From: Rugosimonospora africana
Lineage (GTDB): Bacteria; Actinomycetota; Actinomycetes; Mycobacteriales; Micromonosporaceae
Direction of reading: 5' to 3'
Length of the DNA: 64,000 bases
NCBI RefSeq assembly: GCF_016862975.1
Contig: NZ_BONZ01000086.1
Location: 1-64,000, forward strand
How positions within the stretch are numbered: position 1 is the first letter of the stretch; each line of letters opens with the position of its first letter. This document shows, piece by piece, positions 47,206 to 60,828 of this stretch. Below the pieces are notes generated by a model, which saw only the letters and a program-made list of their open reading frames with translations, made no database searches and was not told the DNA's origin. The position numbers and the translations under genes are program-made.

Positions 47206-47251
47206 CGCGGGGCGTGCGGTTGTCCGTGGTGGCGGGTGGGTACCCGTCGTC

Positions 47252-47929
47252 ATGGGAACAGTCCTGTTCGACGTCGACGGCACCTTGGTCGACACGACGT
47301 ACCTGCACGCCGTCACGTGGTGGCAGGCGCTGGCCGCGCACGGTCGTCCGGTACCGATGGCCCGGATCCACCGGGCGGTCGGCATGGGGTCGGACCGGCT
47401 GCTGCCGTACCTGCTCGGGGAGGAACCGGACGAGGAGCTGTCCGGCGCGCTGACGGCAGCCCATGCCTCGCTGTACCAGCCGTACTGGCCACAGCTGCAG
47501 CCGCTGCCCGGCGCCGGCGATCCGCTGCGTGCCTGCGCGGCGCGGGGGCTGGGCGTCGTCCTTGCCTCGTCGGCGTCGGCGGACGAACTGACCGCGCTGC
47601 GGAAGGTGCTGGCGGCCGACGATGTCATCACCACGGCGACCAGTGCGGCGGACGCCTCCACGAGCAAGCCCGCACCCGACATCCTCCAGGTGGCACTGGA
47701 ACGCAGCGGTACGGCGGCCAGCGACGCGGTGTTCCTCGGCGACTCGGTCTGGGACGTCGAGGCCGCCGGCCGTGCCGGTGTGCCCTGCCTCGCGGTGGAG
47801 TGCGGCGGCACCAGCCGGGCGGAGCTTCAGGAGGCCGGGGCGATCGCGGTCTACCGCGACCCGGCCGCGCTGTGCCGGGAACTGGAGCGTGGTGCGGTGC
47901 TGCCCCAATCGCTGGGTGAACAGCGGTAG
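47252..47929 (+). CDS. HAD-family hydrolase (phosphoglycolate phosphatase-like)
   Basis: A 225-residue HAD subfamily IA phosphatase. Motif I is LFDVDGTLVDT (nucleophile Asp and acid Asp), motif II is LASSASADEL, motif III Lys lies in STSKPAPDI, motif IV in VFLGDSVWDVEAAGRAG. The helical cap lies between motifs I and II. The substrate is likely a small phosphorylated metabolite. It overlaps the next small gene by 14 bp. Confidence 0.92.
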   Translation: MGTVLFDVDGTLVDTTYLHAVTWWQALAAHGRPVPMARIHRAVGMGSDRLLPYLLGEEPDEELSGALTAAHASLYQPYWPQLQPLPGAGDPLRACAARGLGVVLASSASADELTALRKVLAADDVITTATSAADASTSKPAPDILQVALERSGTAASDAVFLGDSVWDVEAAGRAGVPCLAVECGGTSRAELQEAGAIAVYRDPAALCRELERGAVLPQSLGEQR

Positions 47930-53125: not shown

Positions 53126-53977
53126 ATGAATGTATCGCCCCGTACCACGCGTACCTGGCTGATCACCGGCGCTTCCTCGGGGATCGGCGGCACGCTCGCC
53201 ACGACCCTGCTGGAGCGCGGGGAGCAGGTCGTCGTGACTGCCCGTGACCGCGAGCGCGTCGGAGAGTTCGAACGGCGCTACCCGGGCCGCGCCATCGCGG
53301 CGGAGTGCGACGTGACCGATCCCGCCGCGGCACGCGCGGCGATGGCCGCCGCGGTGGCGGCCTTCGGCCGGGTCGATGTCGTCGTCAACAACGCCGGCTA
53401 CGGCTTGTTCGGCGCACTCGAGGAACTGCCCGACGACGAGCTGCGCCGGCAGTTCGAGACCAACGTCTTCGGTTCGCTCAACGTCGCCCGCGCGGCGCTG
53501 CCGCAGCTGCGGCAGCAGCGCTCCGGACACATCGTGCAGATCTCCTCGCTGGAGGGCGTCGCACCGATGCTCGCCGGCGAGACCGCCTACGCGGCCACGA
53601 AGTTCGCCGTCGAGGGCATGTGTGAGGCCTTGGCCAAGGAGGTTGCCCACCTCGGTGTGCGGGTCACGATCGTCGAGCCCGGCCCGGTGCGCACCGACTT
53701 CGCGGGCGGCGCGAGCGCGAAGTCACCGGAGATCGAGGACTACGACGACAGCGTCGGTGAGGCCCTGCGCCTGTTCGCACAGCTGGCCGGCAACCAGCCC
53801 AACGACCCGGTACGGGTCGCCGAGGCCATCATCGAGGCGGTCGACGCCGACCAGCCGCCGTTGCGGCTCGCGCTCGGCGGAGAGGCGGCCGAAGCAATCC
53901 GCGCCAAGCTCGACGGGCAGCGCCGCGACCTTGACGCCTGGGACCACCTCGCCCGCTCGACCGCGTTCGCGTCCTGA
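53126..53977 (+). CDS. Short-chain dehydrogenase/reductase
   Basis: A 283-residue classical SDR: cofactor loop ITGASSGIGGTLA, NNAGYGLFG, catalytic Ser in VQISSLEGVAP, catalytic YAATK, and VEPGPVRTDFAG after it. TARDRERVGEF after strand 2 suggests NADP(H) preference. Substrate unknown. GGGAAGG ribosome site. Confidence 0.93.
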   Translation: MNVSPRTTRTWLITGASSGIGGTLATTLLERGEQVVVTARDRERVGEFERRYPGRAIAAECDVTDPAAARAAMAAAVAAFGRVDVVVNNAGYGLFGALEELPDDELRRQFETNVFGSLNVARAALPQLRQQRSGHIVQISSLEGVAPMLAGETAYAATKFAVEGMCEALAKEVAHLGVRVTIVEPGPVRTDFAGGASAKSPEIEDYDDSVGEALRLFAQLAGNQPNDPVRVAEAIIEAVDADQPPLRLALGGEAAEAIRAKLDGQRRDLDAWDHLARSTAFAS

Positions 53978-54052
53978 TCCCCCGGTGGGGGACGCGCCCG
54001 GGAGTCGGGCGACGGGATGTGAGAGTTCGATCGCATTGGCCATGATTGGTGG

Positions 54053-54082
54053 GTCATAGCGTCGGGTACCCGACGCTATGAC
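54053..54082. promoter_or_regulatory. Perfect 30-bp palindrome over the start codon of the TPP-oxidase gene
   Basis: GTCATAGCGTCGGGT is followed immediately by its exact reverse complement, 15 + 15 bp with no spacer. The ATG of the TPP-enzyme gene (54078-54080) lies inside the right arm, and no ribosome site is present. It may be a repressor operator, an RNA hairpin that hides the start codon, or both. Confidence 0.8.
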
Positions 54083-55847
54083 TGCGATCGTTTCTGAAGC
54101 TCTGATCGCCCGGCTCGCCGAGTGGGGTGTGGACACGGTCTTCGGGCTGCCCGGCGACGGTATCAACGGCATCATGGAAGGGCTGCGGCGCAATCAGGGC
54201 AAGGTCCGCTTTGTTCTGGTGCATCACGAAGAGGCCGCGGCGTTCATGGCTACCGCGTACGCCAAGGCGACCGGCCGGGTCGGTGTGTGCCTGGCCACCT
54301 CGGGGCCGGGCGGTATCCACCTGGCCAACGGCCTGTACGACGCCAAGTTGGACCACGCGCCGGTGCTGGCCATCACGGGCATGCAGGAGACCAGCGTGCT
54401 GGGCACCGGGTACCAGCAGGAGGTCCACCTGGACCGGCTGTACGAGGACGTCGCGGAGTACAACGAGATGGTCACCAACCCCGCGCAGCTTCCCGGGCTG
54501 GTGGATCTGGCCGTACGCACCGCGTACGCCCGCCGGGGTGTGGCGCACCTGACCATCCCCAACGACATCCAGGTCGCCGACGCCGGCAAGAATCCGTGGC
54601 CGACCGTCGCTCCGGCGCACGCCCCGGCCACGTCGCCGGTGTACCTGTCTCCGCCGGTGCGCCCGCGCGACGACGACCTGAACGCCGCCGCCCGGGTCCT
54701 CAACCGTGGCGAGCGGATCGCGATCCTCGCCGGGATCGGTGCCCGGGGTGCCGGTCCGCTGGTGGAGCGGGTCGCCGAGGTGCTCGGCGCACCGGTCATC
54801 AAGACGCTGTCCGGCAAGATGGTCATCCCCGACGACTCGCCGTTCGCCACCGGCGGTCTCGGCCTGCTGGGTACCGCGCCGAGCGCCGAACTGGTCGACG
54901 ACATCGACACGTTGCTGATGCTCGGCACCAACTTCCCCTACACCAAGCACCTGCCGGAGCCCGGCAAGGTCGCGGTCGTGCAGATCGACACGGACGCCGC
55001 CCGCATCGGTTCCCGGATGCCGACCGACGTGCCGCTGGTCGGCGACGTCGGGGCCAGCCTCACCGACCTGCTGCCGCTGCTGCGCACCCGGGACGACCGC
55101 TCGCACCTGAAGAAGTACCAGGACAAGATGAGCGACTGGCGGTCGAAGATGGCCGCCCTGGAGTCCCCCGACCGCGACCCGATCGCGCCGCAGTACCTGG
55201 CCCACCTGCTGGACGAGTTGTGCACCGACGACTCGGTGCTGACCTGTGACTCGGGAACCATCGCGACGTGGGCCGCCCGGCACTGGAATATCCGGGCCAG
55301 GCGGGAGTTCTACCTGTCCGGCAACCTCGCCACGATGGCGCCCGGGCTGCCGTACGCGATCGGGATCCAGCACGCGTACCCGGACCGGCAGGTGGTGGCG
55401 TTCATCGGCGACGGTGGCTTCGCCATGCTGATGGCGGAGTTCCACACCGCGGTGTGGCACGGGCTGCCGATCAAGGTGGTCATCAACAACAACGCGGGCC
55501 TGGGCCAGATCCTGTGGGAACAGATGGTACTGGGCTACCCGGAGCACGGAGTGCGCTTCGGTGACCCGCAGCCGGACTATGCCGGCTGGGCACGGTCAGC
55601 CGGCGGGTACGGGGTGCGGGTGGAGAAGGCGGGCGATCTGCCCGACGCGTTGCGTACCGCCTTCGCGACGGACGGGCCGGCGCTGGTGGACGTGATGGTG
55701 GATCCGAACGAGCCGCCGATGCCCGGGAAGGTCACCTACGAGCAGGCCAAGAAGTTCGCCGGGGCATTCCTGCGCGGCCAGCCGCACAAGGCGGCCATCG
55801 CCACCACCCTGTTCAAGGACCGAGTCCAGCAGCTGAAGGATCGCTGA
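54078..55847 (+). CDS. TPP-dependent pyruvate oxidase/dehydrogenase-like enzyme
   Basis: A 589-residue thiamine-diphosphate enzyme of the PoxB/acetolactate-synthase family. The catalytic Glu lies in FVLVHHEEAAAFMATAYAK; a central FAD/dinucleotide-like domain spans about 200-340; the TPP-Mg motif is AFIGDGGFAMLMAEF, continued by INNNAGLGQILWEQ. The best guess is pyruvate:quinone oxidoreductase giving acetate and CO2, but acetolactate or other decarboxylating activity is not excluded. Its start codon is buried in a 30-bp palindrome. Its stop overlaps the start of the next gene by 1 bp (TGATG). Confidence 0.88.
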   Translation: MTAIVSEALIARLAEWGVDTVFGLPGDGINGIMEGLRRNQGKVRFVLVHHEEAAAFMATAYAKATGRVGVCLATSGPGGIHLANGLYDAKLDHAPVLAITGMQETSVLGTGYQQEVHLDRLYEDVAEYNEMVTNPAQLPGLVDLAVRTAYARRGVAHLTIPNDIQVADAGKNPWPTVAPAHAPATSPVYLSPPVRPRDDDLNAAARVLNRGERIAILAGIGARGAGPLVERVAEVLGAPVIKTLSGKMVIPDDSPFATGGLGLLGTAPSAELVDDIDTLLMLGTNFPYTKHLPEPGKVAVVQIDTDAARIGSRMPTDVPLVGDVGASLTDLLPLLRTRDDRSHLKKYQDKMSDWRSKMAALESPDRDPIAPQYLAHLLDELCTDDSVLTCDSGTIATWAARHWNIRARREFYLSGNLATMAPGLPYAIGIQHAYPDRQVVAFIGDGGFAMLMAEFHTAVWHGLPIKVVINNNAGLGQILWEQMVLGYPEHGVRFGDPQPDYAGWARSAGGYGVRVEKAGDLPDALRTAFATDGPALVDVMVDPNEPPMPGKVTYEQAKKFAGAFLRGQPHKAAIATTLFKDRVQQLKDR

Positions 55848-58800
55848 TGACGGTCGTCACGCTGCCGATTCCGCGGGCGCGCAAACCGAGCGAGGCCGGG
55901 GGAGAGCAGCCGTTCGAGCTGTCCGAGGCGCTGCGCGAGGCGGTGCGGGGCGAGGTGCGGTTCGACCCGGGTAGCCGGGCGGTGTACTCCACCGACGCGT
56001 CCAACTACCGGCAGGTGCCGATCGGGGTGGTGATTCCCCGCGACATCGACGACGTGGTGGCCGCGGTCGAGGTCTGCCGCCGGTACGACGCGCCGGTCTT
56101 CTCCCGCGGCGGCGGCACGAGCCTCGGCGGCCAGTGCACCAACGTCGCGGTGATGCTGGACCTGGCCAAGTACGTCAACGCCGTCGAATCCGTCGACGCC
56201 GAACACCGCACGGCGGTGGTCCAGGCCGGCATCGTCCTCGACGAGCTGAACAAGGCGACCCGGCCGCACGGTCTGGTGTTCGGCCCTAAGCCGGCCACCC
56301 ACGACCACTGCACGATCGGCGGGATGCTGGGCAACAACTCCTGCGGGTCGACAGCCCAGTGGAGCGGCACCACCGCCGCGAACGTGCGGCGGATGGAGGT
56401 GCTGACCTACGACGGGGTACGGATGTGGGTCGGCCCGACCAGCGACGAAGAGTACCAACGGATCCTGGACGAGGGCGGCCGGCGGGCGGAGATCTACCGG
56501 CAGGTCCACGACCTGCGGGACGCGTACCTCGGGCAGATCCGCACCGGCTACCCCCAGCTGCCGCGGCGCATCTCCGGGTACAACCTGCCCGATCTGTTGC
56601 CGGAGAACGGATTCAACCTGGCCCGCGCGCTGGTCGGCTCCGAGTCGACCTGTGTGACGATCCTGCGCGCCGAGCTGGACCTGCTGCCCGAACCGACCCA
56701 CGTGGCGCTGCTGCTGGCCGGCTACGACGACATCGCTTCCGCCGCCGACCGGGTGCCGCTGGTCAACGAGCACCACCCGTACATCCTGGAAGGGCTGGAC
56801 AACAAGCTCATCGAGTACGAGCGGGACCGCCGGATGAACACCGTGGCGCTGCACGAACTGCCGCCGGCCGGCGCGTGGCTCATGGTCAAGCTGACCGGCG
56901 AGTCCGACGAAGAGGCCCGGACGCGGGCCGAAGAACTGCGCGACGCCCTGGACAAGGACGGCGGCCTGCGCACGCACCGGCTGCTGGCCGACCCGGAGCA
57001 CCAGGCCGAGCTGGACTCGGTGCGGGAGGCGGCGCTGGGCGCCACGGCGCGGGTACCCGGAATGGCCGACACCTGGCCCGGCTGGGAGGACTCCGCGGTG
57101 CCGCCCGAGCGCGTCGGGGACTACCTGCGCGACCTGGGCAAGCTGCTCGACGAGTACGGGTACGGCGCGGCGTCGCTGTACGGGCACTTCGGCCACGGTT
57201 GCGTGCACACCAGCATCCCGTTCGATCTGGTCACCGCGGCAGGCATCGCCGACTTCCGGTCGTTCGTCACCCGGGCCGCGCACCTGGTCGTCACGTACGG
57301 CGGTTCGCTGTCCGGTGAGCACGGCGACGGGCAGGCCCGCGGCGAACTGCTGCCCATCATGTACGGCGAGGACCTGGTGCGCGCGTTCGGCCGGTTCAAG
57401 GCCATCTTCGACCCGGCCGGGCGGATGAACCCCGGCAAGGTGATCGACCCCAACCCGTTGGACGGGCAATTGCGACTGGGTACCGACTACGCGCCGCCGG
57501 TGCAACGTACCCATTTCGAATACCCGGACGACGGCGGGTTCGCCGGCGTACCGACCCGGTGCTTCGGCGTCGGCGCCTGCCGCCGACACGACAGCGATGC
57601 CGGCGTCATGTGCCCCAGCTACCAGGTCACCCGGGAGGAGCAGCACTCCACCCGGGGCAGGATGCGGCTGCTGTTCGAGATGATGCGCGGCGAGACGATC
57701 CGCGACGGGTGGCGCAGCCGGGAGGTCCACGAGGCGCTCGACCTGTGCCTGGCCTGCAAGGGTTGCAAGAGCGACTGCCCGGTCAGCGTGGACATGGCCA
57801 CGTACAAGGCCGAATTCCTCGCCCACCACTACACTGGCCGGATCCGCCCGCGGGCGCACTACTCGTTGGGTTGGCTCCCGCTGTGGGCCCGGCTCGCCGC
57901 ACCCGCGCCGTGGGCGGCCAACCTGGCCACCCACGCCCCCGGCCTCGGCCGCCTGGCCAAGCGCGCGGCCGGCGTCGACCCGCAACGCGACGTGCCGCGC
58001 TTCGCGCCGCGCCGGTTCACCGACGCGTTCCGCCGCCGGGGCAGCCGGGGCAGCGGCAAGCGCGGCCGGGTCGTGTTGTGGCCGGACACGTTCAGCAACT
58101 CGTTCGATCCCGGGATCCCGGCGGCGGCGGTCACCGTGCTGGAGGCGGCCGGCTACCGGGTCGTGGTACCGCAGGACACCGTCTGCTGTGGACTGACCTG
58201 GATCTCGACGGGACAGCTCGACATCGCGAAGAGAGTGCTCCGGCGAAGCCTGCGCACGCTGGCACCGATGCTGCGCGACGGGCTGCCGGTGGTCGGCCTG
58301 GAACCCAGCTGCACCTCGGTGCTGCGCGAGGACGCGGTCAACCTGCTGGGCGCCGGAGACCTGGACGCGGTACGGCTGCGCCAGCAGACCAGGACGCTCG
58401 CCGAACTGCTCGACGAGGACGCGCCGGACTTCGCCCCTCGACTTCCGGAGCTGACCGGTGGTGCGACCCAGGCGATCGTGCAGACCCACTGCCACCAGCA
58501 CGCCACCCTCGGAAACCAGGCGGACCGGCGGGTCATGGAGCGCATCGGGCTCGACGCGCGGGTGCTCGATTCCGGATGCTGCGGCCTGGCCGGCGACTTC
58601 GGCATGACTCCGGAGCACCGGGACGTGTCGCTGGCCTGTGCCGAACGGGTACTGCTCCCGGAGGTCCGGGACGCCGATCCGGACACCCTGATCCTGGCCG
58701 ACGGCTTTTCCTGCCGTACCCAGATTCACGAGGCGGGCACCTGGCGCCGGCCACGGCACCTGGCCGAGGTGCTCGCCGCCGCGGTGGGCGCACAGCGGCC

Positions 58801-58873
58801 CGGTTGGTCCGCGACAGGCAGGCAGCGAGAGGAGAGTCGAGATGCCCCAGCAACAGTGGAGCGCCAAGCGTGA
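55847..58873 (+). CDS. FAD/4Fe-4S D-2-hydroxyacid dehydrogenase-like fusion
   Basis: A 1008-residue fusion resembling GlcD joined to GlcF, or D-lactate dehydrogenase of the FAD/iron-sulfur type. The FAD_binding_4 domain (about 50-230) shows FSRGGGTSLGGQCTN and HDHCTIGGMLGNNSCG. The oxidase C-terminal domain to about 545 ends in GSLSGEHGDGQARGEL and PAGRMNPGKVIDPN. Two ferredoxin-type clusters follow, one in CLACKGCKSDCPVS, and then two Cys-Cys-Gly domains (VCCGLTW and SGCCGLAGDFGM). It would oxidise a D-2-hydroxyacid such as D-lactate and pass electrons to quinone. It is co-translated with the TPP enzyme, which could use the pyruvate formed. Confidence 0.88.
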   Translation: MTVVTLPIPRARKPSEAGGEQPFELSEALREAVRGEVRFDPGSRAVYSTDASNYRQVPIGVVIPRDIDDVVAAVEVCRRYDAPVFSRGGGTSLGGQCTNVAVMLDLAKYVNAVESVDAEHRTAVVQAGIVLDELNKATRPHGLVFGPKPATHDHCTIGGMLGNNSCGSTAQWSGTTAANVRRMEVLTYDGVRMWVGPTSDEEYQRILDEGGRRAEIYRQVHDLRDAYLGQIRTGYPQLPRRISGYNLPDLLPENGFNLARALVGSESTCVTILRAELDLLPEPTHVALLLAGYDDIASAADRVPLVNEHHPYILEGLDNKLIEYERDRRMNTVALHELPPAGAWLMVKLTGESDEEARTRAEELRDALDKDGGLRTHRLLADPEHQAELDSVREAALGATARVPGMADTWPGWEDSAVPPERVGDYLRDLGKLLDEYGYGAASLYGHFGHGCVHTSIPFDLVTAAGIADFRSFVTRAAHLVVTYGGSLSGEHGDGQARGELLPIMYGEDLVRAFGRFKAIFDPAGRMNPGKVIDPNPLDGQLRLGTDYAPPVQRTHFEYPDDGGFAGVPTRCFGVGACRRHDSDAGVMCPSYQVTREEQHSTRGRMRLLFEMMRGETIRDGWRSREVHEALDLCLACKGCKSDCPVSVDMATYKAEFLAHHYTGRIRPRAHYSLGWLPLWARLAAPAPWAANLATHAPGLGRLAKRAAGVDPQRDVPRFAPRRFTDAFRRRGSRGSGKRGRVVLWPDTFSNSFDPGIPAAAVTVLEAAGYRVVVPQDTVCCGLTWISTGQLDIAKRVLRRSLRTLAPMLRDGLPVVGLEPSCTSVLREDAVNLLGAGDLDAVRLRQQTRTLAELLDEDAPDFAPRLPELTGGATQAIVQTHCHQHATLGNQADRRVMERIGLDARVLDSGCCGLAGDFGMTPEHRDVSLACAERVLLPEVRDADPDTLILADGFSCRTQIHEAGTWRRPRHLAEVLAAAVGAQRPGWSATGRQREESRDAPATVERQA

Positions 58874-59168
58874 GCGCCAGTACGAACACGTGAAGGACAG
58901 CGCGAGGCAGCGCGGCCGGTCCGAGGACGTGGCCGAGGAGATCGCGGCGCGCACGGTGAACAAGGAACGCGCCCGCTCGGGCGAGTCGAGGACCGCGAGC
59001 CGTTCGTCCACACAGGACATGTCGTCGAGCCGCCGGGGTGGGCTGCGGTCGCACTCCGGGTCCGGCGGGCGTACCCGCGACCAGCTCTACGAGGAGGCGA
59101 AGCGCCGCAACATCAAGGGCCGCTCCCAGATGTCGAAGGCGCAGCTGGAAAAGGCCGTGGGCCGGTAG
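58842..59168 (+). CDS. Small basic protein with Rho N-terminal-like tail
   Basis: A 108-residue, highly charged protein, often annotated as a plasmid stabilisation protein. The first half is a charged helix (KRERQYEHVKDSARQRGRS); the C-terminus (RDQLYEEAKRRNIKGRSQMS) looks like the Rho N-terminal helix-extended-loop-helix motif, a nucleic-acid-binding element. It overlaps the end of the preceding gene by 32 bp. A true plasmid-maintenance function is unlikely in this context. Confidence 0.78.
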   Translation: MPQQQWSAKRERQYEHVKDSARQRGRSEDVAEEIAARTVNKERARSGESRTASRSSTQDMSSSRRGGLRSHSGSGGRTRDQLYEEAKRRNIKGRSQMSKAQLEKAVGR

Positions 59169-60081: not shown

Positions 60082-60172
60082 CGCCGGAGCGGGACGGGTG
60101 AGGCTGCGTGGACCATCCCCGGACTGGCCGGACAGTGAACGTGACTGTCCCGCGACGACGGCCTGGAGCTAC

Positions 60173-60193
60173 AAGTATACCAGCGGTATACTT
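60173..60193. promoter_or_regulatory. Inverted-repeat operator of the toxin-antitoxin pair
   Basis: AAGTATACC, a 3-base spacer, and the exact complement GGTATACTT. The right arm contains TATACT (60187-60192), an ideal -10 element 7 bp before the antitoxin ATG. Binding here would block transcription, as in antitoxin autoregulation. Confidence 0.75.
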
Positions 60194-60199
60194 CCGGGC

Positions 60200-60460
60200 A
60201 TGAGTGACACGACGATCAAGGTGCCGGCCGGGGTGCGCGACAGGTTGGCAGTGCTGGCGCGGGAACGGTCGACGACCATCCGGGATCTGGTCGAGGCGCT
60301 GGCGAACGCGGAGCCGACGGCCGCGGAGCGCGCTGCTCAGCTGGAGGAAAACCTTGCGGTCTTGCGGGAGGGCTTCGGGGTCGAGTTGTCCGATGGTGAC
60401 CTCGACGCTGGGCGGGCGTTCTGGCAGTCGGTCGCTGACAGGCCCGGCGCCGGGAAATGA
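60200..60460 (+). CDS. Putative antitoxin (ribbon-helix-helix-like)
   Basis: An 86-residue protein. The N-terminus SDTTIKVPAGVRDRLAVLAR followed by RSTTIRDLVEALAN has the strand-helix-helix pattern of CopG/VapB-type antitoxins that bind DNA. The acidic C-terminus would neutralise the toxin. It overlaps the next gene by 4 bp, and a perfect inverted repeat lies at its promoter. Likely leaderless. Confidence 0.75.
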   Translation: MSDTTIKVPAGVRDRLAVLARERSTTIRDLVEALANAEPTAAERAAQLEENLAVLREGFGVELSDGDLDAGRAFWQSVADRPGAGK

Positions 60461-60828
60461 CGGCGGTAGTCCTGGACTACACGGCGCTGCTCGCGATTCG
60501 CGGGAACCAGAGCGTCTCGCGGGCCATCGCTACGGCACCGCAGACGGATGGGCGGTTCGTCGTGCCGGCATTGAGTCTGCTCGGAGCCGCGGCAGATGAT
60601 CCACCGATTGCCGACCATGTCGGGTCGCTGCACCGAGTGGACATCGTGGACCTCGGTCTGGCGGCCGTCGGTTTCACCGCGAGGCTGATCGCGGACGGAG
60701 TCGACTGGCGGTTCGCGCATGCGATCGAGGTTGCGCGCGTTGGCCCATTGCGGCCGCAAGGTCTGCTGGTGATGACGAGCGACCCAGGCGTCTACGGCCC
60801 GTTCGGGATCGAGACGTTCACCATCTGA
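60457..60828 (+). CDS. Putative PIN-like toxin
   Basis: A 123-residue protein opening with MTAVVLDYTALLAIRGN, like the first strand and Asp of a VapC/PIN ribonuclease. The other acidic residues of a PIN site are hard to place: the middle contains RFVVPALSLLGAAADDPP, and a late stretch LLVMTSDPGVYGPFG could carry the final Asp. It may be a divergent or weakened nuclease. Its 4-bp overlap with the antitoxin gene is typical of VapBC operons. Confidence 0.6.
   Translation: MTAVVLDYTALLAIRGNQSVSRAIATAPQTDGRFVVPALSLLGAAADDPPIADHVGSLHRVDIVDLGLAAVGFTARLIADGVDWRFAHAIEVARVGPLRPQGLLVMTSDPGVYGPFGIETFTI

Follow-up and report, generated by a model that had tools for sequence, protein, structure and literature searches.

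A perfect 30-bp palindrome was found over the start of a predicted pyruvate-oxidase-like operon of Rugosimonospora africana, in a stretch of 64,000 nucleotides from contig NZ_BONZ01000086.1 (positions 1 to 64,000) which was analysed as a whole and is called the window. The operon has a probable leaderless stress promoter of SigB type, the putative -10 element of which forms the centre of the palindrome, and the start codon lies in the right arm. A promoter of known kind was thus combined with an unusual palindrome that is so far species-specific. Our tentative explanation is that a hairpin palindrome, which probably originated by template switching, was superimposed on the leaderless SigB-type promoter and insulates the operon against read-through. 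An operator and a neutral by-product were close rivals of it. The features of the region were as follows.

53126..53977, + strand: short-chain dehydrogenase gene, ending 75 nt before the palindrome
54044..54048, + strand: probable -35 element GATTG, which fits GNNTN, with a spacing of 15
54053-54082, no strand: perfect 30-bp palindrome with the centre GGGT/ACCC, at one place in its own genome
54064..54069, + strand: probable SigB-type -10 element GGGTAC at the palindrome centre; GGGTA begins 14 nt before the ATG
54078..54080, + strand: start codon ATG, common to homologues, and putative leaderless 5' end
54078..55847, + strand: gene for a pyruvate-oxidase-like thiamine-diphosphate enzyme of 589 aa, with Pfam TPP_enzyme N, M and C domains
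55847..58873, + strand: second gene, for an FAD-linked oxidase of 1008 aa with Fe-S and CCG domains

The palindrome reads GTCATAGCGTCGGGTACCCGACGCTATGAC, and its halves GTCATAGCGTCGGGT (54053-54067) and ACCCGACGCTATGAC (54068-54082) were complementary at 15 of 15 positions, with no mismatch and no spacer, as the preliminary description had stated. It was the longest perfect zero-spacer palindrome in the window, followed by one with an arm of 10 at 53497-53516. The claim that it lies beyond chance was borne out by Markov simulations (60 Mb for each of the orders 1, 3 and 5), which after scaling to 1.65 Mb predicted 0.03, 0 and 0 palindromes with arms of at least 15, respectively. The chance expectation is small and not nil, since earlier single runs of 1.65 Mb yielded one arm of 15 with order 3 and one arm of 14 with each of orders 1 and 5. 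The ATG at 54078-54080, the start common to homologues, was located within the right arm and no Shine-Dalgarno-like 5-mer preceded it, in agreement with the reported start codon inside the palindrome and the missing ribosome site.

The operon was also as first described, the gene behind the palindrome heading a two-gene stretch of 4.8 kb. The TPP-enzyme domains of the first product scored over the Pfam cut-offs, and its best NCBIfam matches were PRK08273 (595.3 bits, cut-off 724) and PRK08611 (564.8 bits, cut-off 742), both below the equivalog level for pyruvate oxidase. The second gene follows directly 3' of the first. It was matched by tblastn in 31 of 80 named loci, in 26 of them no more than 120 nt downstream of the first gene, and the same pairing was found by tblastn in a sister operon of the same genome (G000:C12; this copy, L002, lies at G000:C12:76814-81580). 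A tree of 26 rows placed the first genes of this genome's two operons as sisters, with support of 88/90, which is under the starred level.

The arrangement GATTG, N15, GGGTAC, N8, ATG was then compared with published promoters. The SigB consensus of S. coelicolor is GNNTN-N14-16-GGGTAY in the cited part of PMC5402319, promoters of GNNTN/GGGTAY type are listed for SigB homologues in that of PMC8346170, and the sigma-H motif of Actinoplanes is given as GTTT, about 14.6 nt and GGGTA in that of PMC11205660. The window promoter agreed with the SigB type in both its -10 (GGGTAY) and its -35 (GNNTN at 14-16 nt). Three SigB/F/G sigma genes scored over the TIGR02980 cut-off among 34 matches in the own genome.

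The start regions of homologues were compared in a set of 98 distinct sequences (110 rows minus duplicates and rows with N; the window and its paralogue included), which are not independent, many rows being from related Nonomuraea species. In 53 of the 98, GGGTA started 14-17 nt upstream of the start codon, compared with 0.64 expected from shuffles, and the -10 hexamer of these 53 rows ended 8-11 nt upstream of that codon. In 33 of them GTTTG, GATTG or GTCTG stood 13-16 nt before GGGTA (0.6 expected), and the looser GNNTN fitted 46 of the 53 (12.4 expected). Six Shine-Dalgarno-like 5-mers, sought from -16 to -5, were present in none of the 53 GGGTA rows, window included, and in 7 of the 45 rows without GGGTA. 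Exact GGGTA was missing at that place in these 45 rows, a number of which showed GGGCA or similar; the C or T that the consensus has after GGGTA was present in just 11 of the 53 rows, and a clear -35 element was absent in the paralogue and in two of three near relatives checked (L041 and L042). In the sampled part of the genome, where start candidates came from a crude gene finder (third-position GC), GGGTA preceded them 13 times at 15 nt and 12 times at 16 nt, while other distances gave 12 (36 nt) and 11 (27 nt) and a control word at most 10, so the peak was modest. GGGTA was located 14-16 nt before an early start candidate in 22 cases of this sample, 8 of which, the window included, had a -35-like word. 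As a separate observation, positions 47238-47254 of the window hold a second possible leaderless GGGTA promoter, with the same GGGTACCC core, which lies 14 nt upstream of the ATG (47252) of a HAD-hydrolase gene; a -35-like word was not flagged for it.

Because the -10 element GGGTAC is the palindrome centre (54064-54069), and given the usual distance from a -10 element to the transcript start, the 5' end of the operon's own mRNA should coincide with the ATG or lie no more than about 2 nt from it. Such an mRNA would lack the left arm, and a hairpin hiding the start would therefore be impossible in it. On the leaderless reading the lack of a ribosome site is also simply accounted for. The GGGTA-type homologues lack one as well (0 of 53), which explains its absence in the window, and this absence is therefore not a mark of the palindrome.

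Folding was evaluated for RNA of different lengths. The 30-mer folded at -23.2 kcal/mol into a stem of 13 pairs that contained the AUG. The RNA of 54030-54120 folded better than shuffles (z -2.92), whereas RNA from the ATG onward folded no better than shuffles (z +0.97). For 53960-54120 the z value was -5.15, and a stem at about 53968-53996 spanned the dehydrogenase stop. Of the two parts of an intrinsic terminator the hairpin was present and the T-run was missing after the palindrome, and a terminator scan of 53900-54200 was empty. Rfam returned one match, which was on the opposite strand and at chance level (E 0.15). Outer inverted arms in register around 54059, within 54002-54116, flank the palindrome (GAGTCGGGCGA/TCGCCCGGCTC and CGATCGCA/TGCGATCG); they were weak and at the edge of chance. 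A larger inverted duplication of the coding start, 54002-54035 with 54083-54116, had been prompted by the fold of 53960-54120 and is not claimed: its best centre paired 24 of 46 positions, but once the core was removed 5 of 98 rows ranked higher, and among 5000 shuffles and 5000 random genomic 95-mers the score was reached 310 and 742 times, respectively.

Long perfect palindromes in general are not unique to one place in this genome. Nine with arms of at least 15, the window's included, were detected in a sample of 2.44 Mb, about 22% of the genome, made up of six fetched segments together with the window (4 kb of contig C86 counted twice). The eight others had zero spacer and arms of 15-19 and lay on contigs C15, C6, C43, C39, C12, C32 and C21, examples being L136:1922-1959 and L157:9896-9925. 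In seven of the nine the distance to the closest 3' end of a predicted gene was 5-47 nt, and one (C21:269896-269925) lay between divergent genes, 32 nt before the 5' end of a gene; the gene finder used here was crude (third-position GC), and it scored an antisense frame above the dehydrogenase gene and so took a wrong left neighbour for the window palindrome. The base rate of palindromes near gene 3' ends favours a hairpin function over a protein operator. The window palindrome resembled these 3'-end palindromes in having arms of at least 15 and no spacer, and differed from them in covering a promoter and a start codon and in lying 75 nt past the upstream stop; the other eight covered no predicted start.

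With up to three mismatches, the palindrome was found at a single place in its own 11.1-Mb genome and in none of 353 other genomes of the family (354 searched). The exact 24-mer core was absent from the GTDB-220 contigs, a set that may leave out the window's own record. Among the 97 other start regions, the longest perfect palindrome that overlapped -30 to +5 had an arm of 7. Symmetry about the -10 element in the 52 other GGGTA rows was at most 9 of 15, and its mean of 4.85, compared with 4.58 for permuted rows, was equalled or exceeded by 20 of 300 permutations; dyad symmetry conserved in relatives was not found. The palindrome was thus species-specific so far, the genus having one genome in the set and the nearest relatives compared being of other genera at about 80% protein identity. 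The preliminary description had held that absence from close relatives would speak against its reading, and as far as was tested absence is what was found, in 353 genomes and in 97 start regions without an arm over 7.

The promoter of the paralogue (G000:C12) shares TGGTGGG, CATA and GGTACCCGACGC with the palindrome region in the same order. This would place the origin of the element before the duplication, but the sign is weak: among 5000 random genomic 100-mers 22 reached the score of 27, among 5000 shuffles 37 did, and the distant homologue L108 also scored 27. An inverted repeat with 8-bp arms, GGTACCCG-ACGCC-CGGGTACC, was also present in the paralogue promoter, and its right arm holds the -10 element there.

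Two wider groupings were considered and rejected. A genome-wide repeat was dismissed, the excess being explained by sub-words and GGGTACCC being as dense in predicted genes as outside them: GGGTACCC occurred 7 times in the window compared with 1.15 in dinucleotide shuffles, CGGGTACCCG occurred 60 times in the 1.65-Mb sample, which likewise counts 4 kb of contig C86 twice, compared with 5.1 under an order-1 model and 51.3 at maximal order, and the density of GGGTACCC per 100 kb was 7.2 inside and 6.5 outside genes predicted by the crude gene finder. A regulon of similar sites was dismissed, the viewed near-matches being mostly inside genes. The inner 16-mer with up to two mismatches had at least 103 places compared with 8 for the reversed control; seven with one mismatch were among the matches listed, and of the five viewed (C84 and C94 left out) four were inside genes and one (L205) lay 83 nt before a gene. 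The place matching a 21-mer with three mismatches (L123) was inside a gene.

In the explanation we tentatively prefer, the leaderless SigB-type promoter would drive the operon with its -10 element at the palindrome centre and the start codon in the right arm. The 5' end of the operon's own transcripts would be the A of the ATG or an adjacent nucleotide; these transcripts would be without the left arm and would be translated with no hairpin. Read-through RNA, for which the dehydrogenase gene at 53126..53977 is a possible source, would contain both arms and form the 13-pair hairpin with the AUG in its stem; it would be left untranslated or be terminated, and the operon would be insulated from upstream transcription. 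As the own mRNA would be without the left arm, sequestration of the start would be possible solely in RNA arriving from upstream, and most weight was given to the view that the palindrome acts, if at all, on read-through RNA. The perfect arms probably came from a template switch in replication around the self-complementary GGTACC core, not from base-by-base selection of a protein site; template switching that generates perfect inverted repeats is documented in the parts of PMC8794818 and PMC7202029 cited here. Against a barrier stand the stem at about 53968-53996 by the dehydrogenase stop, which may already be one, the missing T-run, and the 75 nt to the upstream stop, which is longer than the 5-47 nt elsewhere. 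The weak outer arms around 54059, at the edge of chance, give the template switch no direct support.

A dimeric regulator bound to the palindrome could instead block the -10 element and the transcription start and so repress the operon. Perfect symmetry and ideal placement for repression speak for this operator, as do GGTACCCGACGC and the inverted repeat over the -10 element in the paralogue promoter. We nevertheless considered it rather doubtful. With up to three mismatches the palindrome recurs at no other place in the genome and in none of the 353 other family genomes searched, the five viewed one-mismatch places of the inner 16-mer were intragenic but for the one before a gene, and symmetry about the -10 element in the other GGGTA rows stayed near the permuted level. 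Pfam scans of 22 window proteins, a subset of the window ORFs which included the nearest neighbours on both sides, detected no transcription regulator. Neither recurrence at other targets nor conservation in orthologues was therefore found, a result with which a regulator of a single target is compatible. Fifteen perfect pairs are more than a protein dimer needs. The palindrome could also be functionless, a template switch having put the reverse complement of the start region into the little-constrained spacer between the -35 and -10 elements. Its presence in this species only, among 354 family genomes, the variation of that spacer from row to row among homologues, and the documented template switching (the same parts of PMC8794818 and PMC7202029) all fit such a by-product, which we nonetheless judged unlikely: in the sampled part of the same genome such palindromes mostly lie close to gene 3' ends, positions at which a hairpin is of use, and the shared order of TGGTGGG, CATA and GGTACCCGACGC in the paralogue would imply, weakly, an older element.

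The remaining readings make the palindrome a switch. In a two-state form, which appears improbable, the own leaderless start would be translatable and the hairpin of an upstream transcript would hide the AUG, or supercoiling or a single-target protein would shut the -10 element; start codon, -10 element and barrier would then be one 30-bp object. The proposal of the preliminary description, that the operon's own RNA would sequester its start, for example as a thermometer-like switch, draws on the -23.2 kcal/mol fold with the AUG in the stem and on the z value of -2.92, and we regard it as very improbable. It requires a transcript start before 54053, but the conserved -10 element inside the palindrome would leave the left arm untranscribed; RNA from the ATG folded no better than shuffles, and the Rfam match was at chance level on the other strand. 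Expression of the whole operon is also unlikely to hinge on the palindrome, as had been suggested, because the promoter occurs in relatives that lack it. That the palindrome is a peculiarity of this species or a read-through barrier is more likely than that it is the main switch of the operon.

Compared with the SigB-type promoters of Streptomyces and Actinoplanes, the window fits in -35 element, spacing and -10 element, SigB/F/G genes are present in the genome, and the -10 element is common to about half of the homologous start regions. What sets it apart from them is that a perfect 30-bp palindrome is centred on its putative -10 element. Like leaderless actinobacterial genes it has no Shine-Dalgarno-like motif and a -10 element that ends 8-11 nt before the start, as in the 53 rows; unlike them its start codon, the putative 5' end, is also within a palindrome arm. 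The pyruvate oxidase gene poxB of E. coli is under the general-stress sigma-38 according to the cited part of PMC2759082, and the window may be analogous in placing a predicted pyruvate-oxidase-type gene under putative general-stress sigma control, although with another sigma family, another operon partner and a leaderless start. A literature search on palindromic operators and leaderless mRNA gave no title on this operon. The pyruvate-oxidase-like operon of many actinobacteria would hereby be placed under a probable general-stress sigma factor, and the window offers a natural case in which to study the effect of a perfect palindrome that covers a -10 element and a start codon. Should the palindrome act as an insulator, one sequence would serve as promoter, start codon and read-through barrier.

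Downstream of the operon, a basic 108-aa ORF (58842-59168) overlaps the end of the FAD-oxidase gene; it gave no match in Pfam or NCBIfam and none by tblastn beside homologous operons. Two small overlapping ORFs at 60098-60828, without a Pfam match, appeared antitoxin-toxin-like by eye.
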